Origin: a virus
Direction: 5' to 3' (one strand)
IMG/VR virus record: IMGVR_UViG_3300042516_005599
Span: 1 to 23,235 of that record
DNA: 23,235 bases
In this document: positions 4,447 through 22,959 of the stretch, piece by piece
Layout: the number at the start of each line of letters is the position of its first letter
Position numbering within the stretch: position 1 is the stretch's first letter
Notes under the pieces: generated by a model
Databases searched by the model: none
The model's input: the letters and a program-made list of their open reading frames with translations, nothing else
What the model was told of the DNA's origin: nothing
Position numbers and translations under genes: made by a program

Positions 4447-5811
4447 ATGGCTTCATTTAAAAGATTAAAAAGATCGGATGTAATATCCGTTCCATATGTA
4501 GCCAATAAAAATTGGGTTTTTGAATATTGCCCCTATCCTAAAAACGATCCTAATATAGCGATATATAAAGGAACCAACGTAACTGGTTCCTTTTCATCTA
4601 AAAGAGATCCAATTACTGAAGGACAATATGAGAGATTAGTCTACTCTCAAATAAATCACTTATATTACCAACAATATTCTTCTAGTGTTGAATTTCTTAA
4701 TACTAGTTCATTGTTATCTTCTTTATATTATGATGGTGCTTCTCAAATAAGAGCTACAGGTTCTTATTTTGATTATAATGAAAACCCAAATTTAATTAAA
4801 AATTTCCCAACAGGAGCTTTAGAAGGTATTCGTGTATTATCTATTAATCAAAACTTATATGGTGAGAAAATTTTACCATATGCTTTTGAATTATCATCAT
4901 CTGCATATTATGTTAAAGATGATGGTATAGGTAATTTGATAGACTATAAAAATTTTAATACTCATATAGGTAATATTTTTTATTCTCAAGGATTAGCTAT
5001 AATCACAAGTCAAGATTATCAGTTAATGTTTCCTCTTCCTCCATTAGCTCAATTTATTCAAACTTCATTTTTAGATACTTTTTCACCTAAAACTGTAGAT
5101 TTAACCGCGGCTAGTGATGGTAGAGGAGGAACTGTCGATGTTACATCTTATAAACTTAGCGGTCCATATGCTAGTTTATGTAGTGTGGATAGTAATGGTT
5201 TATTAACATTTAATGCTACTGATCCTGGGATTTATACTATATATTATACTTTTGATGCTGTATTAATTGATTCTTCTTGTGGAACTGAAAATAAAACTTT
5301 AACTAGTAATAGTGGAACTTTAGAAGTAATAATAAGAAATAACTGCGGATTTAAAGTAGCAGTAACAGAAACTACTGTAACTCCAGCTCCAACGACATCG
5401 CCAACTCCAGGACCAACATCTGCCCCAACAACTTCACCAACTACTTCACCTACAACGGCCCCAACTGCGGCCCCAGGATCAACTCCTCCTCCAACAACGG
5501 CGCCTACAACAGCACCTACTACTGCACCTACAACAGCGCCTACGACTGCTCCTACAACGGCACCTACAACAGCTCCAACAACTGTCCCAACTCCATCTCC
5601 AGTTGCTCCAGAATATCAATTATTAAATAGATGTGACGGTGGTGGTACTACTATATACTATTGGGATGGTGGTGGAATTTTAGATAGTGGTGATACAGTT
5701 TTGTCTGCTGTTGGAAATTGTTATTATCCAAACGGAGCATCATCAAATAATATAGTTGGATATGTTCCAATTAATGGTACTTTAAATAACTGTCCTGATG
5801 GATGCTATTAA
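4447..5811 (+). CDS. Virion protein with Ig-like domain, PTTAP linker and Cys-rich tip (454 aa)
   Basis: Four parts can be seen. Residues 1-200 form an N-terminal domain (FKRLKRSDVISVPYVANKNW, YERLVYSQINHLYYQ, HIGNIFYSQGLAIITSQDY) recalling structural proteins of uncultured phages. Residues about 205-305 look Ig-like (Big-type), with SVDSNGLLTFNATDPGIYTIYY. Residues 312-388 are a PTTAP-type tetrapeptide array. Residues 389-454 are a small module with four Cys, ending NNCPDGCY, that matches a module in the 1845-aa protein (12764-12964). The layout of attachment domain, spacer and tip suggests a fibre or adhesin exposed on the virion. Target unknown. Codons in the array are GC-richer than in the flanks, forced by Ala, Pro and Thr content. 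Confidence 0.7.
   Translation: MASFKRLKRSDVISVPYVANKNWVFEYCPYPKNDPNIAIYKGTNVTGSFSSKRDPITEGQYERLVYSQINHLYYQQYSSSVEFLNTSSLLSSLYYDGASQIRATGSYFDYNENPNLIKNFPTGALEGIRVLSINQNLYGEKILPYAFELSSSAYYVKDDGIGNLIDYKNFNTHIGNIFYSQGLAIITSQDYQLMFPLPPLAQFIQTSFLDTFSPKTVDLTAASDGRGGTVDVTSYKLSGPYASLCSVDSNGLLTFNATDPGIYTIYYTFDAVLIDSSCGTENKTLTSNSGTLEVIIRNNCGFKVAVTETTVTPAPTTSPTPGPTSAPTTSPTTSPTTAPTAAPGSTPPPTTAPTTAPTTAPTTAPTTAPTTAPTTAPTTVPTPSPVAPEYQLLNRCDGGGTTIYYWDGGGILDSGDTVLSAVGNCYYPNGASSNNIVGYVPINGTLNNCPDGCY
4567..4593 (+). other. Terminator-like hairpin inside a coding sequence
   Basis: A perfect 10-bp stem (AAAGGAACCA at 4567-4576 with TGGTTCCTTT at 4584-4593) closes a 7-base loop and runs into TTTT. It looks like an intrinsic terminator or attenuator about 120 bases into the 454-aa gene. 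Since it encodes ordinary protein (KGTNVTGSF), it may be coincidence. Confidence 0.3.
5380..5610 (+). repeat. PTTAP-encoding degenerate 12-nt tandem array, first of five
   Basis: About 77 codons of a tetrapeptide repeat Pro-Thr-Thr-Ala/Ser. Unit period is 12 nt with mixed synonymous codons (ACA, ACT, ACG; GCA, GCT, GCG, GCC). It encodes residues 312-388 of the 454-aa protein. Such Pro/Thr-rich chains are usually extended, and Thr could be glycosylated; both are inferences. Confidence 0.9.
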
Positions 5812-5818
5812 TATATAA

Positions 5819-8008
5819 ATGAAAAGATTTACAGTAACACTTGATCCGATTTCGCCAACAGGTCCCTTCAATATATACTATATTGATCCGACAGGAACCT
5901 ACGAGGCATTAAAATCAGATTTAGTGTCCCCTGCTATAAACATAATTTATGATGATTTATATAATGAAGGAAATGGGTATACTATATACACAAGTGATAC
6001 TGTTCAATTTATAGATGTAATTAATGTTAAACCGGAATGCTATGAAACTTATAGAACTCCGTACCCAATTCCATCTCCAACTCCATCTCCAACAACATCA
6101 CCTACAACATCACCTACAACTCCTCCAACAACATCACCAACAACTCCTCCAACTACGGCTCCAACTACGGCGCCTAGTACTGCCCCTACTACAGCTCCAA
6201 CAACAGCTCCTAGTGCAGCTCCTACAACTGCACCTTCAACAGCACCTACAACAGCTCCTAGTTTGGCTCCGACAACGGCTCCAAGTGGGGCTCCAACATC
6301 TGCTCCTAGTACTGCTCCAACAACAGCTCCGACTACAGCTCCTAGTTTGGCTCCAACAACGGCTCCAAGTGGGGCCCCAACATTTGCTCCTAGTACAGCA
6401 CCTACAACAGTACCTACGCCATCTCCAACTGAAGCTCCGACAACGGCTCCAAGTGAAGCTCCAACATTTGCTCCTAGTACTGCTCCAACCAATGCTCCAA
6501 CTACAGCTCCTACTTCATCCCCAGTAACTCCAGCTCCAAGTACGGCTCCAACTACAGCACCTACAACAGCTCCTAGTACTGCTCCTACTATGGCACCTAC
6601 AACGGCTCCAACAACATCACCAACTACTGCTCCTACTTCATCTCCAGTAACAACAGCACCTACAACTGCTCCGACTACAGCACCAACTACAGAACCTACA
6701 CCTGCTCCAACAACAGCTCCAACTTCAACTCCTACACCAGCTCCAACAACGTCTCCAACAACATCACCTACAACGGCCCCAACTGAAGCTCCAACTACGG
6801 CACCTACAACGGCTCCGACAACAGCTCCAACTACAGCTCCGACTGCTGCTCCTGGTTCACCACCAACTCCTCCAACCGAAGCCCCTACTACAGCTCCGAC
6901 AACGGCTCCAACTACGGCTCCAACCACAGAACCTACTCCAACCCCAACTGAAGCTCCAACTACGGCTCCAACTACAGCTCCAACCACAGAACCTACTCCA
7001 ACCCCAACTGAAGCCCCAACTACGGCTCCTACAACGGCTCCTACAACGGCTCCAAGTACAGCTCCAACAACAGCCCCTAGTACAGCTCCAACAACTGCTC
7101 CAACTACAGCCCCAACAACAGCTCCAACAACTGCTCCAACTACAGCACCAACATCAGCTCCAACTGAAGCTCCAGTAATTCCTCCATTTACAATTCCAAG
7201 TTTAACACTTGATTGTAATGCAGGAACCATGTCTGTAACAGCATCAAACGGAGTACCTCCATATGAATTTAGTGCTGATGGTGGATTTACATATTTTGAA
7301 GCTCCAGGTAGTAGTTATTCATTTAGCGGATTATCAGGAATTATAAATCCATGGGTTAGAGATTCAACTGGAAATATATATAGATATCAACAACTTGATT
7401 GTGGTCCTCTTAATGTAACATTTATACCATCATATTTAACATCTAATGCATCAGGTGAGATATTACAAGGTGCTACTTATTATAGAGATGCTTTTCAAGT
7501 TCAAAGTTCTAAAGGTGCTACAATAAGTGTTTCCGGAATACCAGATGCGGGAACAGATACTAGTTTCTTAGGATGGTCATATTACCCATCTACTTTAACA
7601 GGCCCAGTTATCACGGAAAATACTAATTATACTCATACTGTTGAAGGTAATGATTATATATATGGTATATTTAAAGATACATCAGTTACTGCAATTCCAT
7701 TCTGTTTTGCTTTATCTTTAACTAATACATTAACTGATGAAGAATTATTATGGTTCTGTGATGCTTGTAGAACTCCAACAAATGTATTCTTTAGCACCTC
7801 AGCATTAGCTGCTGCAGGTAATGATCCATCAAGAATTGCAATATGGTATAAAAATCCAGAATTAACAAATCAAGTAGATAATGGATTTTATAAACAACAA
7901 TATGCACCACTTGGATCTACTATATTTATATTAAATAATGGTGCTCCATCAGAATATGCTAAAGTTTGTGATTCATCAATGACAGAAAAAGCTCCAGTTA
8001 ATTGTTAA
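5819..8008 (+). CDS. Repeat-rich virion adhesin-like protein with SprB-like and InlB-like modules (729 aa)
   Basis: Residues 1-80 are a short N-terminal domain. Residues 81-456 are a PTTAP-type array, the longest uninterrupted one in the window. Residues about 460-525 (TLDCNAGTM, GVPPYEFSADGG, SFSGLSG) match the pattern of SprB-type repeats from gliding Bacteroidota adhesins (NGG-PPY-YS-GG-F-GL-G). Residues about 535-625 (GATISVSGIPDAGTDTSFLGWSYYP, ITENTNYTHTVEG, YIYGIFK) recall InlB B-type or FGW repeats. The last 100 residues contain four Cys and no recognised motif. No signal peptide is seen, so it is probably a virion component rather than secreted. It lies between two other array proteins, 7 bases after one and 15 before the other. 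A host-receptor-binding role is inferred. Confidence 0.65.
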   Translation: MKRFTVTLDPISPTGPFNIYYIDPTGTYEALKSDLVSPAINIIYDDLYNEGNGYTIYTSDTVQFIDVINVKPECYETYRTPYPIPSPTPSPTTSPTTSPTTPPTTSPTTPPTTAPTTAPSTAPTTAPTTAPSAAPTTAPSTAPTTAPSLAPTTAPSGAPTSAPSTAPTTAPTTAPSLAPTTAPSGAPTFAPSTAPTTVPTPSPTEAPTTAPSEAPTFAPSTAPTNAPTTAPTSSPVTPAPSTAPTTAPTTAPSTAPTMAPTTAPTTSPTTAPTSSPVTTAPTTAPTTAPTTEPTPAPTTAPTSTPTPAPTTSPTTSPTTAPTEAPTTAPTTAPTTAPTTAPTAAPGSPPTPPTEAPTTAPTTAPTTAPTTEPTPTPTEAPTTAPTTAPTTEPTPTPTEAPTTAPTTAPTTAPSTAPTTAPSTAPTTAPTTAPTTAPTTAPTTAPTSAPTEAPVIPPFTIPSLTLDCNAGTMSVTASNGVPPYEFSADGGFTYFEAPGSSYSFSGLSGIINPWVRDSTGNIYRYQQLDCGPLNVTFIPSYLTSNASGEILQGATYYRDAFQVQSSKGATISVSGIPDAGTDTSFLGWSYYPSTLTGPVITENTNYTHTVEGNDYIYGIFKDTSVTAIPFCFALSLTNTLTDEELLWFCDACRTPTNVFFSTSALAAAGNDPSRIAIWYKNPELTNQVDNGFYKQQYAPLGSTIFILNNGAPSEYAKVCDSSMTEKAPVNC
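6257..6508 (+). repeat. Three imperfect 84-nt higher-order repeats
   Basis: Units at 6257-6340, 6341-6424 and 6425-6508 share landmarks spaced exactly 84 nt apart, for example CCAAGTG at 6281, 6365 and 6449. Units 1 and 2 both start CCTAGTTTGG. Each encodes 28 residues (seven tetrapeptides), so duplication has acted on blocks larger than the basic 12-nt unit. Confidence 0.75.
6901..7020 (+). repeat. Two 60-nt tandem repeats, 57 of 60 identical
   Basis: Bases 6901-6960 and 6961-7020 differ at three positions by direct comparison. The unit encodes a 20-residue block with TTEPTPTPTEAP. This is near-exact tandem duplication inside the longer degenerate array. Confidence 0.85.
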
Positions 8009-8023
8009 TAAAAATATAAAAAA

Positions 8024-11000
8024 ATGCCATTAAGTTATTCTACAAGTATTTCTTATTCAAGTTCAGATTTTAGTTTTGCTAATGCTAAATCATCTGATGG
8101 AACTAATAGATATAATAATAAGAAAAAAGAAATAGTAGTTACTTCAGGAGCTGCTACTTATGGGTATGTTAAATTTCAAATAACCCTTACTGGGAGTAAT
8201 ATTAAATATGGTGCTGTAACTTTTTCTACATCTAATAATTCTTCAATATCAATAGGTCAAAATTTAGATGATGTATTCTATCCATGTATATTAGGTGCAC
8301 CTAACGGATATGAAATTTCTTTACAACCTGGGGTTCCTAAAACAATATATGTTATTGTGAATTCTAATTCAAAAATAACAACAAAAAAATTAAATATTAT
8401 AACTGCTGTAGGAGTATCTTCCCCAGCATCAGTTTCATTTGATATTCAATATGATTGTATAACTCCATTATATGAATATTCAGCAGGTGTTCATGTATAT
8501 TCTCCATATGATGCTGCTAATTCTTCTAAGTTAACTACTAAATTATATTCAAGAATACAAATAGGATCCGGAAATAATGATCCTTTCCCATTAAATCATA
8601 AATTATGGGCTTTACCTGATTTTAGCCATCCAGCATATCCATACTACTATTTAATTTCAGGTAATAATAATGTTGTTAAAGTAGGAGGTCCGTATGATAG
8701 AACATTTGGTGTTAAAACTTATTATTACATAACACATAGCGGATGGAATGATTTTTGGGGAATTGATCCTGTAGTACAAGTAAAAGAAGAGGGCCCTGCT
8801 GATTATGAAGGTGCTACTACTGTTTCAGCATGTGTAAACCCATTAATGACTGATATTGGAAAAGTTAAAAGTTGGTTAAATAAATCAACATATACTAAAC
8901 CTACATTATATCAGTATATTACTGGATATCATAGTTCTGTTAAAGAAGCTTCTAATGATAACTTTTTTGCTAAATGGGTATTTAGTAATAATAAATTTCA
9001 TGCTCTTACTGGTAGACGTCATAATATGCTTAGATTAGCATCTGGGTATAAAAAAGGTTTTGCTTCGGATTTTGCTTTTAGTAATAATTTTGAAGCATCT
9101 AACTTAATTGCCGCAGGTATAGCTTTAGGAGCTACAGCTTATGCTGGAGTATTATTAGCTAAAGCATTAACCTCCACTGCTATAGCATCTATTTCTACTA
9201 CTGCGGGAGCAGCAGCTGCGGCATCAATTTCTTCTCCAGTTGTAACAGCTGCTGTGGCTGATATTATTGCTAGTTTAACTTCTACTCTTACAGTTGCCGG
9301 GGTATCTTCAGCAGGTGCTGCTGCAAGTTCAACAACAATCCCTATAATATATAGTACAGTATCAGCAGTTGGTGCTGCTCAAAATACATTAGTCTTATAT
9401 AATGCTTTAGGACAAATAGCAAATTCAATGTCATCTACAGCTATTACTTATGCTAATATAATAACAGCAGGTCCTGGTTCTACTGCTATTAATGGTGGAT
9501 TTTTAAGCTCAGCTATGAGCCAAACTACTTCTGCTGCTTCTTCTGCTGTATCTACAGGGGCTAAATTAGCTACAACTTCAGGTACTTCAGCATCATCAGC
9601 AGCAACCATTTTTGGATTATCAGCTGCTACAGTTGTTCTTATAGTAATATTGATCATAATAGCTATTATTGTGATAATTCAATTAACTGAAAAAATTGAA
9701 AAATGGATTACCGAGCAGTGTAAAAATTTTATTTTTCATTATAATACAAATCCATATATTGAAATCGGAGATTCTTTAAAATTTAAAGATAGATTTCTTG
9801 ATCTTACTAATGGTATACAATGGTATTTTCCAATTGATATATTCGATCCTCCAATATATACTCAAACAAATGATGGATACTATTGTGATGGTGTATATTT
9901 TTATCAACAATCTGGTGGAGTTGTTACATCAAAAGAACTATCTTATTCTAATTATACTTTAATTTCAGAAACTCCTAATATAGTAACAGCATATGAAGAT
10001 TCATTAGATGTTTTAAATCCAACAACAGTAGTTGAAATTGATAGACTCCACCTATTACCATATGCATCTGGTGAGCCTATAGAATATACAGCTTCAGTAC
10101 CTTTATTTTATAGTGAATATCAAGATAATATAGTTAATATATATCCTAAAGGAGGACTACAAACTAAAATTGAAACAAAAACAATGTATGTTAAAGCTAG
10201 TTCATCTATTAGTTATACTAGCTTAGCAGATGCTAATTCTTCTTCATTTGCTTATTTAACATCATCATTAATTCCATTTGTATCATCATCAGGACCACAA
10301 TATACTCCAATATTCCCAACAGGTTCTGAACGACCAGTTCAAATAACTGGATCTCTTCCTATAATAGGAATAGCTACAACTGGTTCTATTAATGTATCAT
10401 CTTCATTAAACGCGTTTTTTACTCATGAATTAAAAATTGAAGATGTTCCAACTGCAGTTAATGTATATTATGATAACACTAGTAGCATTGATTTAAGTAT
10501 AGGAAAAAGATTGTATTATGATAGTTATGGTTATTTTGGTACCTTAGACGGATATTATTCAGTTTCAGGATCTGAAATTCCAAGTTCATCAGCATATAGA
10601 GTTTTTATTAAAACTAATGGAGGAATAATACAAAATATTTACTCTATGCCTTTATCAAGTAGTACAACTGTTACTGATCAAGCAAGTAGTTCTTATTCAT
10701 TAGTTACTGATTATAAAGATTATTCAAGTAATTGGTATTTAGTAAGCAATAATGATGATGAATTAAACACAGATTATGATAATATTGTTAATTATAGCAA
10801 TATAGGGTTACTTCACCCAGATCATATAATGTCAAGTTCTTATCTTAACTCTGTTGATTTACATCAATTAGTTTCTAGAAAAGGATTTATATCAGGAAGT
10901 ATGACTGGTACTGGTTCATGTGATAATTATTTTTATTTATATGATTCTAATTTTACAACTGCTAGTATAAATGAAGCTTCTTCATCTTATTTTTATCGAC

Positions 11001-13561
11001 CATGGTTGCCAATATCAGCAAAACCTTCATTTGCATATACTCCAACATCTTCAGTTCAAATAGATATAGAAGAAGTATGTTTTGTATCTGGATCAAATCC
11101 TTCAAGTTCATTATATGGATTTAATATATACTCTCGAAGTAATGGGTATTTACGTTCTTTTGGTACTGATGTTTATTTAACAACAAATATATATAAATCA
11201 GGAAGTGGATCACCTGTAATTTATAATATAACAGCATCTGATTTATCTCTTACAGTAAATTATAGTGTAAGTTCATCTTATACTAGTAGTTTTATTAATA
11301 GTGGTTACCAAACCTCTTGGTTTGTTCCTTACAATAATAGTGTATCATCAAGTGATATTGTTACTTCAATTTCAATAACATCATTATACACAGGTAGTGC
11401 AGTTTGTAAAACAAGTTACAATGTTGGAAGTTTTACAGGTTGTGATAATCCAACTCCTGCTCCAACAACAGCTCCAACAACAGCTCCTACAACGGCACCT
11501 ACTACGGCTCCAACAACAACTCCAACCCCTAACCCAACACCTGCTCCAACTACGGCTCCAACAACAACTCCAACCCCTAACCCAACACCTGCTCCAACTA
11601 CGGCTCCAACAACAACTCCAACCCCTAACCCAACACCTGCTCCAACAACCGCTCCAACTACGGCACCTTCAACAGCGCCTACTACTACCCCAACTCCTAA
11701 CCCAACACCTGCTCCTACAACAGCTCCAACTACGGCACCTACAACGGCTCCTACTACGGCACCTACAACGGTTCCTACTCCATCTCCTGTAACACCTGCT
11801 CCTAGTACGGCTCCTACAACAGCTCCTACTACGGCTCCAACAACCGCTCCTAGTACAGCACCTACAACAGCTCCTACTACGGCTCCAACAACTGCTCCAA
11901 CAACAGAACCTACTCCAGCTCCAACTGAAGCTCCAACAACAGCTCCAACAACTGCACCTACAACAGCTCCAACTACGGCACCTACAACGGCTCCAACATC
12001 TGCTCCAGTCTTACCTCCTTCTAGTGCATTAACCATGTGGGCTAGATTAGATTCAGGAACTAATCCATTACAAGGATGGGGTACATCTTTTGATGCATGT
12101 GCTGGTACAGGTACAGAAATTACAGTATTTGTAAATTCTACTGGATATACTTCAATATATGATGCTTATACTGATGGTAAAGCTTTATATACTACTAATA
12201 CTCTCCAAACATTGTATGCTGGTGCCGGAACTTATTTTAAAGCAGTTGCTAATAATTCATCAGGTGATTACTTTACAATAGACAATTCAGGATTTATAGA
12301 TATTTATAGTGCTTGTTCTCCACCAACTACAGCTCCTAGCACTGCTCCAACAACTGCCCCTACAACTGCTCCTAGTACAGCTCCAACAACTGCTCCAACA
12401 TCAGCTCCAATTCCATTAACAACTTACTATGAAGTATCTTCATGTGTAGATGTATTATATAAATTTACTACAATCCCACCTGATGGAATAAATCAAAGAT
12501 ATGTACTACCAGCAGAACCAGGAGTAAATTATATATATAATGGTAACTCAGTAACCCAATACCCAGCTCCTCCAACATATGATAGTAGCTTCCAGAAAAC
12601 AACATCATATAATTGTACAGACCCAACTCCATCTCCAACAACAGCTCCAACAACTGCACCTACAACAGCTCCAACTACGGCACCTACAACGGCTCCAACA
12701 ACTGCTCCAACTACAGCTCCAAGTACGGCTCCAACTACGGCACCTACAACGGCTCCTACTCCAGTATATTATTATAATGCTACTAGATGTGATAATAATA
12801 CAAATTATATTGTTTATGGTGGAACTAATTACTACAGTACAGGAACTGTTGTTATATCTGGAGGTACAACATATTGTTATACAATTCAAAATGAGGTAAT
12901 TGCTCAAGCTTACGATGATACAGTGGGTTCTTCAGTAAATAATTGTAATAATGTTGCTTGCTACACAACTCCAGCTCCAACAACTGCTCCAACTACAGCT
13001 CCTAGTACTGCTCCAACTACAGCACCAACAACAGCTCCAACTTCAGCTCCTGTAACCCCAGCCCCAACTACGGCTCCTACTACTACTCCAACCCCTAATC
13101 CAACCCCTGCTCCAACAACAGCTCCAACAACAACTCCAACACCTAACCCAACTCCAGCTCCAACAACAACTCCAACACCTAACCCAACTCCAGCTCCAAC
13201 AACAACTCCAACACCTAACCCAACTCCGGCTCCAACAACAGCTCCAACAACAACCCCAACACCTAACCCAACTCCGGCTCCAACCACAGCTCCAACTACA
13301 GAACCAACTCCTAATCCAACACCTGCTCCAACAACAGAACCAACTCCTAATCCAACACCTGCTCCAACAACATCTCCAACTCCTTCTCCAGTTACACCAA
13401 CATGCTATACTTACACTAACAGCGATTATTCCCCTGATATATTTGTAGAATATGTATCATGTGTCGGATCCACAACATCTACTAATTTAGCATTTGGTGA
13501 CAGTATTTGTGCTCAGTATCTTATATCAGGTGATTTATCTCAAGGAACAACTTGTGGTTAA
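8024..13561 (+). CDS. Giant modular virion adhesin with internal membrane segment and four PTTAP arrays (1845 aa)
   Basis: The largest gene of the window. Residues 1-150 look beta-rich ([16 protein letters not shown]). Residues 355-525 are Ala/Ser/Thr-rich and hydrophobic, ending in a strong membrane-spanning stretch at about 532-555 ([19 protein letters not shown]), followed by the charged TEKIEKW. Residues 560-1140 are Ser/Tyr-rich and fibre-like. Residues 1143-1328, 1433-1464, 1534-1580 and 1648-1792 are PTTAP/PTPNP arrays. They separate small modules at about 1329-1432, 1465-1533, 1581-1647 and 1793-1845, most with paired Cys. The module at 1581-1647 resembles the C-terminus of the 454-aa protein. 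A tip or side fibre, or a protein inserting into the host envelope, fits this design. No enzymatic motif was seen. The start is the ATG after an A-rich leader. Confidence 0.65.
9619..9690 (+). other. Predicted membrane-spanning segment within the 1845-aa virion protein
   Basis: About 24 consecutive, almost purely Ile/Leu/Val/Ala residues follow an Ala/Gly/Ser-rich region (from about 9085) that could form glycine-zipper-like helices, and precede a charged amphipathic stretch. Strongly hydrophobic single helices are unusual in fibre proteins. Confidence 0.7.
11450..12007 (+). repeat. PTTAP/PTPNP array A of the 1845-aa protein
   Basis: 186 codons of Pro/Thr/Ala/Asn/Ser tetrapeptides (residues 1143-1328). 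It includes the near-perfect 48-nt tandem at 11513-11656. Confidence 0.9.
11513..11656 (+). repeat. Three tandem 48-nt units, two exact
   Basis: Units at 11513-11560 and 11561-11608 are identical. The unit at 11609-11656 differs only near its end (ACAACC in place of ACTACG). Each encodes 16 residues containing [10 protein letters not shown]. The exactness points to recent duplication. Confidence 0.88.
12320..12415 (+). repeat. Short PTTAP array B
   Basis: 32 codons (residues 1433-1464 of the 1845-aa protein) linking two small modules. Confidence 0.85.
12623..12763 (+). repeat. PTTAP array C
   Basis: 47 codons (residues 1534-1580 of the 1845-aa protein) linking two small Cys-containing modules. 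Confidence 0.87.
12965..13399 (+). repeat. PTTAP/PTPNP array D
   Basis: 145 codons (residues 1648-1792 of the 1845-aa protein), dominated by [10 protein letters not shown] units. It includes three 36-nt tandem units at 13127-13234 and precedes the C-terminal Cys module. Confidence 0.9.
13127..13234 (+). repeat. Three tandem 36-nt units, two exact
   Basis: 13127-13162 and 13163-13198 are identical. 13199-13234 differs at one base (CCA to CCG). Each encodes [12 protein letters not shown]. Confidence 0.88.
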
Positions 13562-16138: not shown

Positions 16139-17017
16139 ATGAAAATAGTAATTTACCCAGGCGCGTTTAAACCACCTCATAAAGGTCATTTCCAAGTAGT
16201 TAAAAAATTAGTTGATAGAGATGATATTTCTGAGGTGGTTATTGCTGTTTCACCTAAAGATCGTGGTGGAGTGTCATTAGATCAAGCATTAAAAGTTTGG
16301 GAATTATATGTTAATTTATTAGGTCCTAAAGTTAAAGTTATACCATCTGAAGGTTCTCCTGTATATTATACATTATCTTCAATTAAAAATAACCCAGATC
16401 AAGATTTTGTAGTTGCATTTGGTAAAGAAGAAAGTTCTCGTTTTGCCTCATTAGCTGATAATCCTAAAGTTGAAGTATTTGATGCTGGTAATTTTGAAAA
16501 TATATCAGCTACTGACTTTAGAGATGCTATTCAAGCTCGTAATGTAAAACAAGTAGCTAATTTTTTACCTGCTGGTATTTCAACAAAACAATTTTTTGAT
16601 GCTTATGGTAGTGTTTATAATAACAATGAAGAACCTATCCATGAATCATCATTACACGAAAATAAATTCCCACTATTAAAAGAATTTATTGGGTATTGTA
16701 GAGAATATTTAAAATTAAAATCATTACCTCCATTAAAAATGTCATATGATCCTACAACAGCAGAATCAAGACGTTCATTTGGTGGGTATGATCCAAATAA
16801 TAAAAGTATAGAATTAAGTGTAGCTAATCGCCATCAAGCTGATGTTTTCAGAACATTAGCACATGAATTAGTTCATTACAAGCAAGATATACAAAATAGA
16901 TTAACACCTGAATCAGGCAAAACAGGTCATGCTCATGAAAATGAAGCTAATGCTGCTGCCGCTATAATGATGAGAAACTTCGCTCAAATGCGACCTGAAA
17001 TGTTTGTAGTAAAATGA
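16139..17017 (+). CDS. Nucleotidyltransferase fused to HELVH zinc metallopeptidase (292 aa)
   Basis: Residues 1-160 form a Rossmann-type nucleotidyltransferase (NMNAT / cytidylyltransferase superfamily). YPGAFKPPHKGH gives the HxGH motif (H14, H17), and NISATDFRDAI is the C-terminal ISxTxxR-like motif that binds the triphosphate. Residues about 175-292 are a second domain with FGGYDP and TLAHELVHYKQ (HExxH, H242, E243, H246). GHAHENEANA follows, where E267 or E269 can be the third zinc ligand, as in gluzincin-type peptidases. The substrate of the first domain (NMN, pantetheine phosphate or other) cannot be told from sequence. The 4-nt overlap with the kinase-phosphatase gene suggests a shared pathway. 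I have seen both domains in phage genomes; their fusion is noteworthy. Confidence 0.78.
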   Translation: MKIVIYPGAFKPPHKGHFQVVKKLVDRDDISEVVIAVSPKDRGGVSLDQALKVWELYVNLLGPKVKVIPSEGSPVYYTLSSIKNNPDQDFVVAFGKEESSRFASLADNPKVEVFDAGNFENISATDFRDAIQARNVKQVANFLPAGISTKQFFDAYGSVYNNNEEPIHESSLHENKFPLLKEFIGYCREYLKLKSLPPLKMSYDPTTAESRRSFGGYDPNNKSIELSVANRHQADVFRTLAHELVHYKQDIQNRLTPESGKTGHAHENEANAAAAIMMRNFAQMRPEMFVVK

Positions 17018-18345
17018 TAAAATTATTTGATTTATTAAAAGAAATTGTTTCACCTCAAAATAAAATGATAATTTTAGCTGGAGGTGCTGGAGTTGGTAAA
17101 TCTACTTTAATAGATAAAATTAAAGGATTATCACCTGGTTTTGAAATAATTAATCCTGATAAATACATTGAGGACAAATCAAGCCCAATGTTTAATAATT
17201 TATCAGCAGCTTCTGCTCAAGTAGATGATGTTGATGTACCTAATGCTCTTTCATCAGGTAAATCATTTATTTGGGATACAACAGCATCTAATGCTGCTAA
17301 ATTACTTGGGGGAACATATAAACGTAAAGAAACTCCAGGATTATTAAATGCTGCTTCTAATTACGATACATTAATGATTATGGTGTATGCTCATCCTATT
17401 GTATCATTTTTAAGAAATTTTAAACGTGAGCGTAAAGTACCTAAAATAGGTGTTATATCAACATGGAATAATGTATACGGTAATATTGATGCTTATAAAA
17501 ATAAATTAGGTGATAATTTTGTATTATATCAAGCACCAGATGATGAGTATAAAAAAGAAATAGAAGAATTTAATCAGGCCGTTCAACAAGGAAAATTATA
17601 TGAATGGTTAGAAGAACTAACATCTCAGAATCCAGAACAATTTGTATCTACTTTCCGTAAAACTCAGGATGCACCTTTATCACCTGAAGAACAAGCTAAA
17701 AAAGATAAAGCGACAGAAAAATCAAGAGAACTATTTAAACAATTAGTATCTCAATTAGAACGTGAATTTATCACTATAGATAAAAAAATTAAAGATTCTG
17801 TTTTATCTGAACCTGAACTTATATCTAAAGTAAAATCATTTAATAATCAATCTTCTGAATTAAACGAAGCACAACAACAATATAAATTATATTGTGATAT
17901 GGATGGTGTATTAGTTGATTTTGAACGTGGGTATAATGATTTAACTGGTAAAAAAACACCAGGTGTCAATTCAACATATAATAAAGAGGATTTTTGGGGA
18001 GCAATTACTAAAGCAGGTGCTAAATTTTGGGCTGATTTGGATTGGATGTCTGATGGAAAACAATTGTGGGATTATATTAAACAACATAATCCTAAATTAT
18101 TAACTGCTCCTTCACGTGAAATATCATCTGAAATAGGAAAAAAAGAATGGGTTGATAAACAAATACCGGGTACTCCAATTATATTCAAACAAGCAAAAGA
18201 CAAAAAGGATCTAGCAGAACCAAATGCTATATTAATTGACGATAGAAAAGATAATATCCAACAATGGATAGATGCTGGAGGAATTGGTATTCGCCATACT
18301 TCAACAGCATCAACAATAAAACAGTTAGAAAAATTAGGGTTATAA
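17014..18345 (+). CDS. P-loop kinase fused to HAD phosphatase, PNKP-like layout (443 aa)
   Basis: The N-terminal kinase has Walker A GGAGVGKST (residues 23-31) and zeta-toxin/PNK-style INPDKY and SFIWDTTAS. The middle (about 195-285) is charged and likely helical. The C-terminal HAD domain starts CDMDGVLVDF (nucleophile D295, acid D297), with LTAPSRE as motif II, a Lys-rich stretch, and LIDDRKDN as motif IV; it looks like the 5'(3')-deoxyribonucleotidase (NT5C) branch. T4 polynucleotide kinase/phosphatase has the same order of domains in 301 residues. A role in end repair of RNA or DNA is thus possible, but nucleotide salvage or an unrelated pairing is not excluded. The first 10 residues (MIKLFDLLKE) look like a cleavable capsid-targeting leader. 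Confidence 0.72.
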   Translation: MIKLFDLLKEIVSPQNKMIILAGGAGVGKSTLIDKIKGLSPGFEIINPDKYIEDKSSPMFNNLSAASAQVDDVDVPNALSSGKSFIWDTTASNAAKLLGGTYKRKETPGLLNAASNYDTLMIMVYAHPIVSFLRNFKRERKVPKIGVISTWNNVYGNIDAYKNKLGDNFVLYQAPDDEYKKEIEEFNQAVQQGKLYEWLEELTSQNPEQFVSTFRKTQDAPLSPEEQAKKDKATEKSRELFKQLVSQLEREFITIDKKIKDSVLSEPELISKVKSFNNQSSELNEAQQQYKLYCDMDGVLVDFERGYNDLTGKKTPGVNSTYNKEDFWGAITKAGAKFWADLDWMSDGKQLWDYIKQHNPKLLTAPSREISSEIGKKEWVDKQIPGTPIIFKQAKDKKDLAEPNAILIDDRKDNIQQWIDAGGIGIRHTSTASTIKQLEKLGL

Positions 18346-18346
18346 A

Positions 18347-18931
18347 ATGGCAAAAGAAACATTGTTACAAAAAGAATTCGCTGAAAAAGATATAAAACGA
18401 ATTCGTAATCTAGTATCAGGTAATTATAATGATGCTACACAAACTCAAGTAGGATATTCTCGTAGACATATTGAGCGAAAAGAGGGAGAAGTATGGGAAG
18501 AAAATGGTAAATCATGGACTGTAAAAAATGGAATAAAAATTAGTGTATCTAAATTAGAACGCGCTAAAACATACTCTTATACTCCTATTCTTTGTCCTAA
18601 TTGTTCTAAACCTATGAAAGGACAACATGATAAAAAAATGTTTCGTATTCATAGTATGTGTTTAGATTGCGTCATTGAAATGGAAACTAAATTAAAATTA
18701 GAAGGAAAATACGAAGAATACGAAAAAAATATTGTTAAAAACAATGCTAACTTTATGTTAGATGAATTTGAAAATGGATTTGAAGATTTTTTAAATAGTT
18801 TTGATGCTACTAGTTTTGTTACTGAACAAGGTGATATTGAAGATTGGCATGTAAAAGCATTAGATAAACAAAAAATCCGTAAACAAGTAACGAAAGATTT
18901 AGAAGAAGCTAGGGTTAAATTAAACTCTTAA
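18347..18931 (+). CDS. Zinc-ribbon phage protein of unknown function (194 aa)
   Basis: Starts one base after the kinase stop. The protein is basic and mainly helical with a central zinc ribbon: C83-x2-C86 (CPNC) and C105-x2-C108 (CLDC), 18 residues apart. The upstream segment EGEVWEENGKSWTVKNGIK is recognisable to me from hypothetical proteins of uncultured phages, without a known role. The C-terminus is acidic and helical (DEFENGFEDFLNSF). Possible roles are nucleic-acid binding or transcription regulation, by analogy with zinc ribbons only. Unlike several neighbours it has no LxE-type leader. Confidence 0.7.
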   Translation: MAKETLLQKEFAEKDIKRIRNLVSGNYNDATQTQVGYSRRHIERKEGEVWEENGKSWTVKNGIKISVSKLERAKTYSYTPILCPNCSKPMKGQHDKKMFRIHSMCLDCVIEMETKLKLEGKYEEYEKNIVKNNANFMLDEFENGFEDFLNSFDATSFVTEQGDIEDWHVKALDKQKIRKQVTKDLEEARVKLNS

Positions 18932-18945
18932 TATTTATAAGTATA
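18928..18945 (+). promoter_or_regulatory. Second exact copy of TTAATATTTATAAGTATA
   Basis: Identical 18-mer to 16102-16119, again overlapping the stop codon of the gene before, and ending directly at the ATG at 18946. It is a candidate promoter or processing site that would start the block of small leader-bearing genes. Confidence 0.4.
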
Positions 18946-19140
18946 ATGATCTTAAAAATTTTAAATGAGATGAATGACTCAACTGAGTTAAATGCTGCTG
19001 GGGTAGCAACAACGTGTATTGCTTTATTCAACAGCTTTTTTCAAATGCTAAATCCTGTACTTACTGGCCTATTTTATATCCTATCTATTGGATGGTTAGG
19101 AGTGCAAATATACTATAAAATTAAACGTAACGGAAAATGA
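18946..19140 (+). CDS. Small membrane protein, holin-like size (64 aa)
   Basis: Residues about 19-55 are hydrophobic and can form one long or two short membrane helices ([14 protein letters not shown] and [19 protein letters not shown]), ending in a basic tail KIKRNGK. Size and layout fit a holin or other small phage membrane protein, but many short membrane peptides look alike. The first 8 residues, MILKILNE, look like the leader of neighbouring proteins, with LNE as a possible protease site. It overlaps the next gene by 4 nt (ATGA). Confidence 0.6.
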
Positions 19141-19532
19141 AAGCTTCTGAACTTAGAGAACTTATTGCTTTGGAATTAAAAAAAGCTAAAAAAGATTATG
19201 ATGGAGATGGTAAAATAGAATCTTCACAAGATGAATATATGGGTTCTCGTGATAAAGCTATTAAAAAAGCAATGTCTAATGAAGATTTAGATATAGGTCA
19301 TCAAGACGATGAGCCAGGAATGCTTAAAAATGATCTAGCTAGAGCTGCTAAAATGGCAGCTATGTTATACAAAAAAGTAGATGCTTACGATAAAATGGGT
19401 GGTGAAGTAGATTTTCCACAATGGTGGCAAGAAAAAATAATTAAAGCTAAAAGTTATTTACAAAGTGCTTTTGATTATTTAGATGGCGAAGAAATGATAG
19501 CTCAAATAGATCGTTCTAATCAATCGGAATAA
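19137..19532 (+). CDS. Acidic/basic small protein with DxDGDG loop (131 aa)
   Basis: After the amphipathic start [19 protein letters not shown] comes [23 protein letters not shown]. This resembles an EF-hand or dockerin calcium loop, but position 12 is Gln rather than Glu. The C-terminal half is helical, with [29 protein letters not shown], a segment I recognise from hypothetical and virion-associated proteins of T4-like and uncultured marine phages. No enzyme motif. It is linked by ATGA and TAATG overlaps to both neighbours. The leader contains L-R-E, a possible prohead-protease site. Confidence 0.65.
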
Positions 19533-19780
19533 TGATTAAATTAGTTAATATATTAAGTGAAGTATCCGAGGTATCACCTCCATATATGTACTCACCAGTA
19601 GGATTTGGGTGCCACGTATGTAAATTCTACTATAAACAAGATGATAAACATATGTGTGCAAGCACAGATTATCAAGAATATATGGGTACTTCTGAATTAA
19701 TTGATAATGATGGAAATCAGATAAAAGATCCTTCTAAATGGTGTTCTAACTGGTTTTTACCAAAACAAGAAGAAAAATGA
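19532..19780 (+). CDS. Small Cys-rich protein, metal- or Fe-S-binding candidate (82 aa)
   Basis: The start codon shares one base with the previous stop. Four Cys are placed C-x2-C (CHVC), one 11 residues later (HMC), and one near the end in KWCSNW. C-x2-C ... C ... C followed by Trp recalls high-potential iron-sulfur proteins, but spacing differs from the usual motif and a zinc site is equally likely. The N-terminus [10 protein letters not shown] is nearly the same as MIKLFDLLKE of the kinase-phosphatase, a strong hint that it is a shared leader rather than part of the fold. Overlaps the next gene by 4 nt. Confidence 0.65.
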   Translation: MIKLVNILSEVSEVSPPYMYSPVGFGCHVCKFYYKQDDKHMCASTDYQEYMGTSELIDNDGNQIKDPSKWCSNWFLPKQEEK

Positions 19781-21192
19781 AGTTATCTGAATTAAAAAAT
19801 ATAATTCGTACTACTATAATGGAAAAAAAGCTTTGTCCTAAAGGCAAAGCTTATTACAATCGCCGTATAGCAGCAGGTGAAGTACCATCTGCTTATTTAT
19901 CAGGTCGTGCTGTTAAAGTATGTAAAGGATTAATGGAAGAAGATATTAATCCATTAACTTGGGAACCTATTATTAAAGCAGAATCTGAAGAAATAGAACG
20001 TACAGCAGAAGATTTAGGTTTACCTTATGATGTAGTATATGATTCTTTCGTTAATGGTAAAGAAGTTACTTTAAATGATGATATGTGGTCACGTTTAGAA
20101 AATACTGACTCATATGATGTAAATTCTGAAGAAGAAGCGGTAGAATTAGCGCAATATTACGGTAAAGATATTCAAAGCATATTGTCTGCTGAAAAAACTC
20201 CTCCCGCGTTAATATTGCAATATTCTCCAAATAAATTTTATTTAGTAGGTGGTAATACTCGTTTAATGGTTGCTAGAGCTAAAGGTGTAAATCCACAAGT
20301 TATTTTAGCTACTATTGAACCTTTAAATAAGTACGCTTACCAAGATGTAAATGATATATCTGAGTCACTTCGTGATTGGTTTAAAAAAGAAGATTGGGTT
20401 CGTATTGATACTCAAGGTAATATAACTGGTCCTTGTGGTACAATGAAAAAAGGACAAGCAACTACCCGTTGTTTACCTCGTGCTAAAGCGAATTCATTAA
20501 CTAAAGCAGAACGTGCTGCTACTGCTCGTAAAAAAGCAGCTGCTGATCGTAAAGGCGATCGTGTAGTTCCAAATACACCAAAAGCTAAAGTACGTTTAGA
20601 AGAAGATTGTGGATGTAATGGTCCTAAATTAATTTTAAAAGAAGGACAAAATGTTCCTGTATTATCTGAAGGATTAAAACATCATATAGCTGAAGGATTA
20701 CAATTAATTCATAATATTTATCGACCCTTATCTAAGCAATATTTTGAATTGTTCAATGAAGCTAGAAAATTATATAATGAAGGATTACTTTCAGTAACTG
20801 AAGATGATATTGAGATATTAGAATCAAATATTGGGGAAATGTTTACGTATAAAGGTATTGAATTTCCACTTGATTATATTTTAACTGAAGAAGAATTAGT
20901 AGCTGAAGTAGATAAAAAGAAAACTCCACCTATTGGAAAACCAAAACGTGGTGGTTCTAAAAAATTCTATGTATATGTTCGTAAACCAGGTGGAGGTATT
21001 AAAAAAGTATCATTTGGTGATACAACAGGTTTAAGAGCTAAATTGAATAACCCACAAGCTCGTCGTGCATTTGCTGCTCGTCATGATTGTAAAAATAAAA
21101 AAGATAGAACAAAAGCATCTTATTGGTCATGTCGTTTACCTCGATATGCTAAATTATTAGGTTTTAAAACAACATTTAGTGGATACTGGTAG
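19777..21192 (+). CDS. Mosaic phage protein with leader, ParB-like patch and basic C-terminal module (471 aa)
   Basis: Several modules in a row. Residues 1-16 are a leader (MKLSELKNIIRTTIME). Residues 17-52 hold CPKGKAYYNRRIAAGE and PSAYLSGRAVKVCKG, a short phage module. Residues about 60-185 contain FYLVGGNTRLMVARAKG, like the GGxxRxxA motif of ParB/Srx-type folds. Residues about 205-270 are basic, with DTQGNITGPCGTMKKGQ, RCLPRAKANSLTKAERAATARKK and VPNTPKAKV, a recurrent phage domain of unknown role. Residues about 285-390 are helical and acidic. Residues about 395-471 are a basic Cys-containing module (KFYVYVRKPGGG, RRAFAARHDC, YWSCRLPRYAK). The basic modules could bind DNA. A head-internal protein is possible given the leader and several (L/I)xE sites. 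Confidence 0.65.
   Translation: MKLSELKNIIRTTIMEKKLCPKGKAYYNRRIAAGEVPSAYLSGRAVKVCKGLMEEDINPLTWEPIIKAESEEIERTAEDLGLPYDVVYDSFVNGKEVTLNDDMWSRLENTDSYDVNSEEEAVELAQYYGKDIQSILSAEKTPPALILQYSPNKFYLVGGNTRLMVARAKGVNPQVILATIEPLNKYAYQDVNDISESLRDWFKKEDWVRIDTQGNITGPCGTMKKGQATTRCLPRAKANSLTKAERAATARKKAAADRKGDRVVPNTPKAKVRLEEDCGCNGPKLILKEGQNVPVLSEGLKHHIAEGLQLIHNIYRPLSKQYFELFNEARKLYNEGLLSVTEDDIEILESNIGEMFTYKGIEFPLDYILTEEELVAEVDKKKTPPIGKPKRGGSKKFYVYVRKPGGGIKKVSFGDTTGLRAKLNNPQARRAFAARHDCKNKKDRTKASYWSCRLPRYAKLLGFKTTFSGYW
19828..19852 (+). other. Compact stem-loop near the start of the mosaic gene
   Basis: AAGCTTTG (19828-19835) pairs with CAAAGCTT (19845-19852). With one G-U and one C-G pair inside, it makes a 10-pair stem and 5-base loop. 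It lies within codons 18-26. Such hairpins are expected a few times by chance at this base composition. Confidence 0.25.
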
Positions 21193-21448
21193 ACCATATA
21201 CTGATTTAGAAAATACCGAAGAATATGTAATAAGAGAGTTCGATGAGAATATAGATCCCATCGAACTTCTTTGGCATCGTGATGATGAACATAGAACATT
21301 ATATCTTCAAGGTGAAACTGATTGGAAAATACAATTAGAAGACGAATTACCAATTACATTTGCTCAACCAATATTTATACCCAAACACAAATACCATCGT
21401 TTAATTAAAGGAAATGGTAAGTTACGACTAAAAATTTATAAATATTAG
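21179..21448 (+). CDS. Cupin-like small protein (89 aa), GTG start
   Basis: No ATG exists in frame near the 5' end. The GTG at 21179 gives a 14-base overlap with the previous gene and is the most economical start. The conserved-looking part is REFDENIDPIELLWHRDDEHRTLYLQGETDWKIQLEDELP, then FIPKHKYHRLIKGNGKLRLKIYK. This pattern of short beta strands with HRD and KYHRL fits a single-domain cupin-like barrel that I recall from hypothetical proteins in phages. Metal ligands typical of enzymes are incomplete, so it may be structural. A 9-bp inverted repeat lies at 21237-21267. Confidence 0.6.
   Translation: MDTGRPYTDLENTEEYVIREFDENIDPIELLWHRDDEHRTLYLQGETDWKIQLEDELPITFAQPIFIPKHKYHRLIKGNGKLRLKIYKY
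21437..21444 (+). promoter_or_regulatory. TATAAATA, T4-late-promoter-like word in sense orientation
   Basis: TATAAATA overlaps the end of the cupin-like gene and ends 8 bases before the ATG at 21453. It equals the T4 late promoter core and points with the genes. In such AT-rich DNA an octamer can occur by chance, so support is weak. Confidence 0.25.
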
Positions 21449-21452
21449 TTAT

Positions 21453-22082
21453 ATGATAACGAAACAAAACTTTTTCTTAATTATAATATTAGTATTAATT
21501 GGAGTAATTGTAATACAACAATGTACTTCTAATAGTGATAGCGATAAACCAATAATTAAAGTTGATGGTAAAAAATATGAGCTATTATCTCAAAAAATAG
21601 ACACTGTATTTGTTGATAAATTTAAAACAAAATATTTAAAAGGTTCAGATATATACCATGAAACTATAGTTGAAAAAGAAAAACGAGTTGAAGTACCTGT
21701 TTATTTAAAAGGAGATACTATTCGTATAGTCGAAGATTACCATAAAAAAGTATTATATAAAGATAAATTAGTATTAGATGATAATTTAGGTACTATTGAA
21801 TTAACTGATACTATATCTATGAATAAAATTATTGGTCGTAAATGGAATGCTCAAGTTAGAGAACGTACTATAACCGACACTAAAATAGTAAAAGAATTAC
21901 CTAAAAACCAAGTATATGTTGGTGTGAGTGGTGTTGTTGGTAACTCATTAGTATTAGCTGGTCCTAATATATCACTGAAAACGAAAAAAGACAATATTTA
22001 TGGTCTGAATGTATATGTTGATCCTAATCTAAACAAATATATAGGAATTAACTTAGCTTGGAAAATTAAACTTAAAAAATAA
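21453..22082 (+). CDS. Membrane-anchored phage protein, spanin-like topology (209 aa)
   Basis: One N-terminal membrane segment (FFLIIILVLIGVIVIQQC, residues 7-24), then a hydrophilic chain with repeated short beta-like units of valine and aspartate (DTVFVDKFKTKYL, EKRVEVPVYLKGDTIRIVEDY). The C-terminus (QVYVGVSGVVG, YGLNVYVDPNLNKYIGINLAWKIK) looks like amphipathic beta strands. The topology and DTV/PVY style resemble proteins found in Bacteroidota phages and prophages (DUF6808-like in my memory). An Rz-like envelope-spanning lysis role is possible. C24 could be a lipoprotein Cys, but the preceding residues are a poor lipobox. Shares one base with the next gene. Confidence 0.6.
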   Translation: MITKQNFFLIIILVLIGVIVIQQCTSNSDSDKPIIKVDGKKYELLSQKIDTVFVDKFKTKYLKGSDIYHETIVEKEKRVEVPVYLKGDTIRIVEDYHKKVLYKDKLVLDDNLGTIELTDTISMNKIIGRKWNAQVRERTITDTKIVKELPKNQVYVGVSGVVGNSLVLAGPNISLKTKKDNIYGLNVYVDPNLNKYIGINLAWKIKLKK

Positions 22083-22498
22083 TGACTCAGAACGAAAAAT
22101 TGCGATTAATGGTTAAAAAAATGATCGCGGAAGCAGTTTCTCATCGTATTGCTCAAATTGATGAAGCTGGTGATATTGCAGCAAACGAAGCAAAAATTGC
22201 TCGTGTTGGTGAAGAATTAAATAAAGCAAATAAAATTTCAGAATTACTTGAAAGAATTAACTTACAACACTATATTGGTGAAAAGTTATATGGTAAAGTA
22301 AAAGAAGAAATGACTAAATCAATAGAAGAATATGAAGGTGCTAAGTTGGAACTTGAGGAACGAATGTCAGGAGGTAAAGACGCTGATAAAAAAGATAAAA
22401 AGAAAGGTAAAAAGTCAGCTGAAAAAGACGATAAAGCAGGAGACGATGCGCAAATGCTTGAAGCAAATCCTGTCGAAGTAGAAATACCACAAGTATAA
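22082..22498 (+). CDS. Coiled-coil, charged protein; candidate prohead scaffold/core component (138 aa)
   Basis: Starts MTQNEKLRLMVKKMIAEAV: an amphipathic helix with I-A-E followed by A, the same residues as the T4 internal-protein cleavage site (FIAE/A). Residues 20-95 are helical and coiled-coil-like (ELNKANKISELLERI, KSIEEYEGAKLELEERM). Residues 97-121 are Lys/Asp/Gly-rich low complexity, and the tail is acidic (QMLEANPVEVEIPQV). Small charged helical proteins with cleavable ends are typical of T4-like prohead cores (gp67, gp68, gp22). Assignment is by analogy, with no alignment made. Confidence 0.55.
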   Translation: MTQNEKLRLMVKKMIAEAVSHRIAQIDEAGDIAANEAKIARVGEELNKANKISELLERINLQHYIGEKLYGKVKEEMTKSIEEYEGAKLELEERMSGGKDADKKDKKKGKKSAEKDDKAGDDAQMLEANPVEVEIPQV

Positions 22499-22959
22499 TG
22501 ACTAAAAAAGAATTAGCAGATAAAGTAAGAGCTGCTGCTCGTGAAGTTGCTTCTCGGGCAGATAAACCAGACAATGCTACTCCAATGTCTTTGAAATATT
22601 CTGAGATGTTGTATAAATTTCCTAAACTACAGGAAACTTTAACTGAGTTGATGTCTACTGAATTTACTTTATTTGTAGAAAATATAGAATGGATTGCTCC
22701 ACGTCCAACTACATTTAAAGTAATCTTAAAAAACTTTAACGATTTTATTTTAATTTGGAATGGTGGTGATTTTATAGCTAGAGTAGCAGGTACTAATTAT
22801 GATTTAACTTCTATAAGTGCTGAAGAACGTGCTATTAAAGCTATTCAAGAATTATTAATTACTGGTCCTATCAACCCTGAAAAGGGCGCTGCTACTTCAT
22901 CTCAGAATCTAACTCCAGCAGAGGAAGCTCCAGCTGAAGAAACACCTGCTGAAGCATAA
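22498..22959 (+). CDS. Phage protein of unknown function with PAEE tail (153 aa)
   Basis: Shares one base with genes on both sides (TAATG). The N-terminus MTKKELADKVRAAAREVA is an amphipathic helix; RAAARE gives A-x-E rather than L/I-x-E. The middle (residues 45-120) looks like a compact alpha/beta domain (FTLFVENIEWIAPRPTTFKV, FILIWNGGDFIARVAGTNYDL). The last 20 residues are an acidic low-complexity tail of PAEE-type units. No recognised motif. The position next to the coiled-coil gene suggests the same module, perhaps head assembly. Confidence 0.6.
   Translation: MTKKELADKVRAAAREVASRADKPDNATPMSLKYSEMLYKFPKLQETLTELMSTEFTLFVENIEWIAPRPTTFKVILKNFNDFILIWNGGDFIARVAGTNYDLTSISAEERAIKAIQELLITGPINPEKGAATSSQNLTPAEEAPAEETPAEA

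Follow-up and report, generated by a model that had tools for sequence, protein, structure and literature searches.

In phage T4, the internal proteins, which are basic (PMC9026906), are brought into the core by propeptides of 10–19 residues; the protease gp21 cuts after L/I-x-E, and foreign proteins fused to a T4 leader are packaged as well (PMC9026906, PMC5694885). In T4, Asp in place of the Glu prevents processing and leaves targeting intact (PMC9026906). In phiKZ, 201phi2-1 and SPN3US, large sets of inner-head proteins, 19 of them in phiKZ, are processed by a prohead protease and some are ejected into the host; the cleavage sites of phiKZ and 201phi2-1 have the form S-x-E (SQE, STE), and the propeptides are often longer than 100 residues (PMC10052503, PMC5694885). 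Here, we describe a group of short N-terminal leaders ending in (L/I)xE, encoded by a 23,235-base viral fragment from IMG/VR (record IMGVR_UViG_3300042516_005599; the whole analysed stretch is called the window below) and by its relatives. The presence of interchangeable leaders on unrelated proteins suggests that T4-like water phages load a mixed protein cargo into the head; as judged from sequence comparison, the leader pattern across genomes is well supported.

A nucleotide search of the window against phage records gave no match. For both the primase (46% identity) and the exonuclease of the window, a counterpart was identified in Flavobacterium phage immuto, an isolate from the host Flavobacterium sp. 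LMO8 whose complete genome, with gene starts as deposited, was included in a comparison set of nine genomes or large contigs. In the other members of the set, gene calling relied on a simple script with the leftmost ATG as the start, so that some starts may be wrong. The gene order is the same in all nine: primase, exonuclease, a variable block, terminase, gp20, gp21 protease, scaffold and gp23. Of this region, the window includes the primase and exonuclease genes together with the greater part of the variable block; the terminase and head genes lie beyond its end. In the relatives, the leader genes are situated directly upstream of terL-gp20-gp21-gp22-gp23, a conserved order. The first-pass annotation of the window had suggested looking for a gp21-like protease and a capsid gene near the leaders; both the gp21-type prohead protease (PF03420) and the gp23 capsid protein (PF07068) were found directly downstream in 10 of the 12 related records, one of which, G001, encodes a kinase 93% identical to that of the window.

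The same annotation had listed six look-alike leaders, starting at 17014, 18946, 19137, 19532, 19777 and 22082, and all six N-termini are indeed present in the sequence. Five of them are kept in relatives together with (L/I)xE. In the leader MIKLFDLLKE of the kinase-nucleotidase (17014..17043, on the plus strand, as are all features given below), K3, L4 and E10 are invariant across 18 kinases with identity down to 38%, and the linker to the P-loop is variable. The 10-residue leader at 19532..19561 is preserved in 8/8 sequences with the consensus MIKL(V/I)NILSE. The leader MKLSELKNIIRTTIME (19777..19824) is conserved and is replaced by other leaders in relatives, and the leader MTQNEKLRLMVKKMIAE (22082..22132) retains the helix and IxE among its orthologues, reading M(T/N)Q(N/K)E(K/Q)LRxxVKxMIAE in close relatives and (L/I)IKEAI in distant ones. 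The leader MKASELRE (19137..19160) is the weakest of the five because it has a single, divergent orthologue (L071). The sixth candidate was rejected: the membrane protein starting MILKILNE (18946..19140) has seven orthologues that begin M(V/S/I/G)ITFL(S/P)LLNKMHQ and lack the site. Short peptides thus precede unrelated proteins in five of the six proposed cases, in line with the shared N-termini and leader swapping described below.

The statistics for the nine genomes clearly showed where such sites accumulate. [LI]xE with its E at residues 6–20 was found in 143/258 proteins (55%) encoded between the exonuclease and the capsid gene (the head region) vs. 176/919 (19%) elsewhere (p 1.5e-28). When the first 20 residues were shuffled, 68 ± 6 sites were expected in the head region and 153 ± 10 elsewhere, the observed head-region count exceeding the composition shuffles by 11 standard deviations. 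At residues 21–35, the head region did not differ from the rest (p 0.10), and residues 36–50 and 51–65 differed slightly. The variable block alone had the site in 83/175 proteins (p 2.9e-14); with one protein per homology cluster, it was present in 54% vs. 21% (median p 3.6e-9); and in immuto, with deposited starts, in 15/22 head-region proteins vs. 36/190 others. Each genome encodes 12–21 site-bearing head-region proteins. Moreover, non-homologous pairs with at least 6 residues in common among the 10 that follow the start Met were 12-fold more frequent in the head region (45/14,117) than among the other proteins (69/272,556), where some sharing pairs are leader copies outside the head region and some are signal-peptide-like.

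Grouped by eye, the leaders fall into several classes: class I, MKxSxLxxIIKE-like, in which the position of E varies (e.g., MKKSQLREIIRKEL); class II, MI(K/R)LxxLLxE, with MI[KRST]L starts in 19/258 head-region proteins vs. 5/919 others; class III, MENFDLKKFLVENKL-like, found in immuto and G011; and class IV, MKKQILSEQFRRMQKLAGIITE-like. We do not claim that class I leaders are copies of the scaffold N-terminus or class II leaders of the capsid N-terminus, the similarity being weak (area under the curve 0.60 and 0.57). In immuto gp079 (L143:14006-16531; 841 residues), a class I-like stretch, KSELKEIMLEAYIEVLQE, is located mid-protein directly before a domain that has a gene of its own in the window (22498-22959).

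The leaders are exchanged as modules, a kind of swapping that the first-pass annotation had envisaged for one leader on many folds: a given domain may follow various leaders, lack one, or form part of a larger fusion protein, with the site kept at the junction. The KKLCPKGKAYYNRR domain is located behind MKLSELKNIIRTTIME in the window, MDLNKIKSIIENVIME in G001, MIKLTDILNEILTE in G005 and MIKLSDILLETLLE in G012, the KKLCPKG domain of the 19777 protein being found behind MIKLTDILNEILTE and MIKLSDILLETLLE in the latter two. The nucleotidyltransferase starts with MGGNVF in immuto, MIKLIDIAKLIVE|GGNVF in L012 and MISLIKLLHEVLIDE|GGNVF in G004, and an enzyme resembling nicotinamide mononucleotide adenylyltransferase starts with MKIVIYPGAFKPPHKG in the window and MNLGQHIAKQLLE|EKQYIIGVFPGAFKPPHKG in L009. 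The window protein combining a nucleotidyltransferase and a metallopeptidase (16139..17017) has no leader and contains internal IHE169, LHE174 and LKE182, and its orthologue in G003, L009, L011, L012 and L015 bears the leader MNLGQxIAxQLLE. In immuto, G010 and L016, the nucleotidase is a protein by itself and bears its own leader; in the window, it is part of a fusion in which SSELNE precedes it, and in fusions found elsewhere it follows other sites. For nine modules, [LIVM]xE was detected within 12 residues upstream in 61/71 distinct contexts, compared with 15.8% for random positions, a figure that is optimistic because some junction anchors were picked after the first examples had been seen. 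For the SLRDWF module, E immediately precedes it in 13/13 distinct contexts, 12 of which fit [LIVM]xE; several of these contexts were new when counted and had not been seen when the anchor was chosen. At internal junctions, the site is retained without a preceding leader helix, as in KLINLDE|SLRDWF, SSELNE|AQQQY and GADLNE|DCGC.

Two window proteins illustrate this architecture. The P-loop kinase part of the 17014 protein (17044..17859) has a zeta-toxin/polynucleotide-kinase-like fold: the closest solved structures to its model are a zeta toxin and a polynucleotide kinase (Foldseek 1gvn, 9.6e-6; 3q8x; 4gp6, 1.4e-4), and the Pfam matches to AAA_33 and Zeta_toxin are below the cut-off. An internal LNE site (residues 283-285; 17860..17868) lies in the linker to the nucleotidase, where residues 280-296 are disordered (predicted local distance difference test, pLDDT, < 50). 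The HAD-type 5′(3′)-nucleotidase part follows (17869..18342; phrog_2643, 9.6e-29), and its domain has (L/I/V/M)xE upstream in 13/14 distinct contexts. The protein had been described as a kinase-phosphatase; the kinase half of this description agrees with the match to the polynucleotide kinase/zeta fold, and the HAD part turned out to be NT5C-like. According to the model (mean pLDDT 71), residues 1-14 have pLDDT < 50 with a predicted free helix at 4-11, so that the kinase leader is placed outside the folded domain. Leader-free orthologues exist as well, and no leader was found to be part of a conserved fold.

The 19777 protein is composed of several modules: module 1, CPKGKAYYNRR (19825..19941; isoelectric point, pI, 9.8), ends in LMEE; an internal ISE site (20356..20364) precedes the SLRDWF module (20365..20604; pI 10.4; phrog_23735, 9.1e-14), which ends in LEE; a run of sites, LEE, LKE, LSE and IAE, surrounds DCGCNGP (20596..20694); and a basic C-terminal module with the GKPKRGGSKKFYVYV domain (20695..21189; pI 9.7; phrog_7595, 6.7e-11) corresponds to a separate gene in G003, G004, G005 and immuto. 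Three of the predicted pieces are basic (pI 9.7-10.4), like the internal proteins of T4. The structure model of this protein was too poor to be used (mean pLDDT 48).

Sites of the same kind are present in the head proteins of the relatives. All nine capsid proteins contain ENQA(K/R)x(L/I)VxE at residue 59-60, followed by a variable stretch and then the conserved domain; with V at P3, this site is slightly broader than the T4 rule. Its place is close to LTE65, at which T4 gp23 is cut. In three genomes, the N-terminus of the protease contains QLLIET or QILIET and resembles that of T4 gp21. The scaffold C-termini mostly bear (I/V)xE, in one case with D for E, and close with a tag similar to RMQKLAGI. 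The RMQxLAG-like pattern was found 13 times at C-termini and nine times at N-termini in the nine genomes, with 0.05-0.1 expected per class from shuffles. A scan of IMG/VR DNA for RMQKLAGI revealed at least 81 in-frame cases on at least 80 contigs; among the matches listed, at least 66 are within 1-4 residues of the C-terminus, at least 13 near the N-terminus and at least two elsewhere, and an [LIVMT]xE site comes just after the N-terminal tag in 13/13. As the listed occurrences are so placed, the tag belongs at a protein end and, whichever end it occupies, is separated from the cargo by the protease site. Such a tag ends scaffold-like proteins (immuto gp067, L141-L144; L207-L286) and begins some cargo, with [LIVT]xE between. 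No copy was detected among the called window proteins.

When compared to the T4 capsid-targeting system (IPI, IPII, IPIII and Alt with gp21), the leaders described here are alike in that a short propeptide ending in L/I-x-E precedes unrelated proteins, and the relatives of the window likewise encode a gp21-family protease and the gp23 capsid protein. The T4 leader MKTYQEFIAE had been ascribed to internal proteins and Alt in general; this is right for IPII and IPIII, whereas Alt starts with MELITELFDED, and IPI begins MKTFKEFTSTTTPVSTITE. In contrast to T4, the leaders here are unlike MKTYQEFIAE, form several classes and have many more candidate bearers per genome, the candidate cargo includes metabolic-type enzymes and multi-module proteins with internal sites, and there is a second, mirrored tag. 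The starts of T4 gp24 (MAKINELLRE), gp22 (MLKEQLIAE) and gp21 (LLIE) do resemble them. Since by inspection they are nearer to the gp24 and gp22 starts than to MKTYQEFIAE, the leaders appear to be capsid-targeting-like in function rather than homologues of the internal-protein leaders. The phages phiKZ, 201phi2-1 and SPN3US also combine large sets of head proteins with a prohead protease (gp175/gp245), but in the window and its relatives, P3 is L/I/V/M instead of Ser and the leaders have 8-20 residues. T4 pseT, the polynucleotide kinase/phosphatase, shares the order of a P-loop kinase followed by a HAD part, and the window kinase resembles both polynucleotide kinase and zeta toxin; pseT differs in having no leader, and the HAD part here is 5′(3′)-deoxyribonucleotidase-like (phrog_2643) and a separate gene in relatives.

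Taken together, the leaders, the position of their sites, their swapping and loss and the protease and capsid genes adjoining them in the relatives, all read directly from the sequences, make it highly probable that we are dealing with capsid-targeting propeptides of the T4 kind, served by a prohead protease, with swappable leaders and a cargo of enzymes and polyproteins. By analogy with T4, the short amphipathic helix would draw a cargo protein into the prohead core during head assembly, where a gp21-type protease would cut after (L/I/V/M)xE and free the cargo inside the maturing head; similar sites in the capsid protein and the scaffold would be further targets of the same protease. The putative cargo would include the zeta-toxin/polynucleotide-kinase-like kinase-nucleotidase, small proteins of unknown function and the basic 19777 protein, which might be cut into several pieces; the leaders move freely between the genes of such proteins. 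Delivery of the cargo into the host, extrapolated from T4 and phiKZ, is the most speculative step. More tentatively, the packaging code may consist of two parts, swappable N-terminal leaders and the RMQKLAGI tag, copied from the scaffold C-terminus, at either end of the cargo, with a protease site between, multi-module cargo including enzymes being polyproteins cut inside the head; we regard this as plausible without favouring it.

The leaders might instead be uncut docking helices that anchor their proteins on the scaffold or on the membrane at which proheads are formed, with xE as an acidic helix cap. Their amphipathic helices, such as that predicted in the kinase leader, the shifting E of class I and the assembly of T4 proheads on a membrane would agree with this, yet the site is kept at internal junctions having no such helix and recurs in the capsid protein, so that docking seems unlikely. 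Still less probable is that these are ordinary late cytoplasmic enzymes encoded next to the head genes, whose leaders serve another late function, e.g., complex formation: neighbours without a leader do occur in the same stretch (the 18347 family, an FAD oxidoreductase and a thymidylate-kinase-like protein), but leader types recur on protease-adjacent head genes, and the RMQKLAGI tag is common to scaffold and cargo. As for chance, K/E/I/L-rich helical starts would be frequent in AT-rich phage proteins and would make [LI]xE near the start common; 19% of ordinary proteins carry the site, and the 18946 start and the primase start MENLVLINLLE are chance matches. This explanation holds for 18946 but is refuted for the whole set, for which it is hardly credible, by an enrichment confined to head-region N-termini, above shuffles and significant at the cluster level.

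Several observations weigh against T4-like targeting propeptides. In the distant pelagiphage HTVC008M, the cargo block shows no significant excess of sites (4/14 vs. 17/97, p 0.26), and we therefore do not extend the leader pattern to it. Placement in the head region could reflect a common late operon, an objection that the loss and exchange of leaders meets in part. Leader-like helices are also found outside this region, e.g., next to baseplate genes; the scaffold N-termini read AIAE in some genomes and AIAD or AIVD in others; and, as some segments inside the cargo hold (L/I)xE too, not every such motif can be a cut site. Finally, we found no virion proteomics or cleavage data for this group in the open-access literature, so that cleavage, packaging and injection are inferred; the single paper located on phages infecting the host strain of immuto mentions neither immuto nor mass spectrometry.

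Some further features were noted. In HTVC008M (L203), a kinase and a nucleotidase (106562-107224 and 111128-111718) look leader-bearing, reading MIPFILKE|GLYDPG and LVQE|QDSLPTIYCDMDG. A small protein beside the baseplate genes (immuto 81525-81944, L142; G004_205; G005_51) has a conserved MKLDLLKKLIKEAVKEAVREE-like start reminiscent of the class I leaders. Two adjacent immuto genes far from the head genes (24569-24994 and 25061-25456, L141) start with MIKLIDLLTE and MKKQILSEQFKRMQFLAGIITE, and their products are possible further cargo from outside the head region. The portal (gp20) C-termini of the nine genomes carry a conserved (L/I)L(N/D/S)E(D/E/S/T)(N/Q)(I/L)KD-like tail that includes a possible protease site. 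In the window, positions 4447-13561 encode three long proteins rich in PTTAP/PTPSPV repeats, one of 1845 residues, which are probably tail or surface proteins. PADLOC gave no convincing defence match.

The leaders provide a sequence rule for predicting head-carried proteins, the majority of which bear the annotation 'hypothetical', across a large group of uncultured aquatic phages, and the rule is directly testable because a cultured relative exists. No paper on these leaders or on the RMQKLAGI tag was found in the open-access literature. If the proposed scheme is true, it would add a scaffold-derived tag absent from the literature searched, and would broaden the concept of internal proteins, which in T4 are few and small, to a wide range of swappable cargo that includes nucleotide-handling enzymes.

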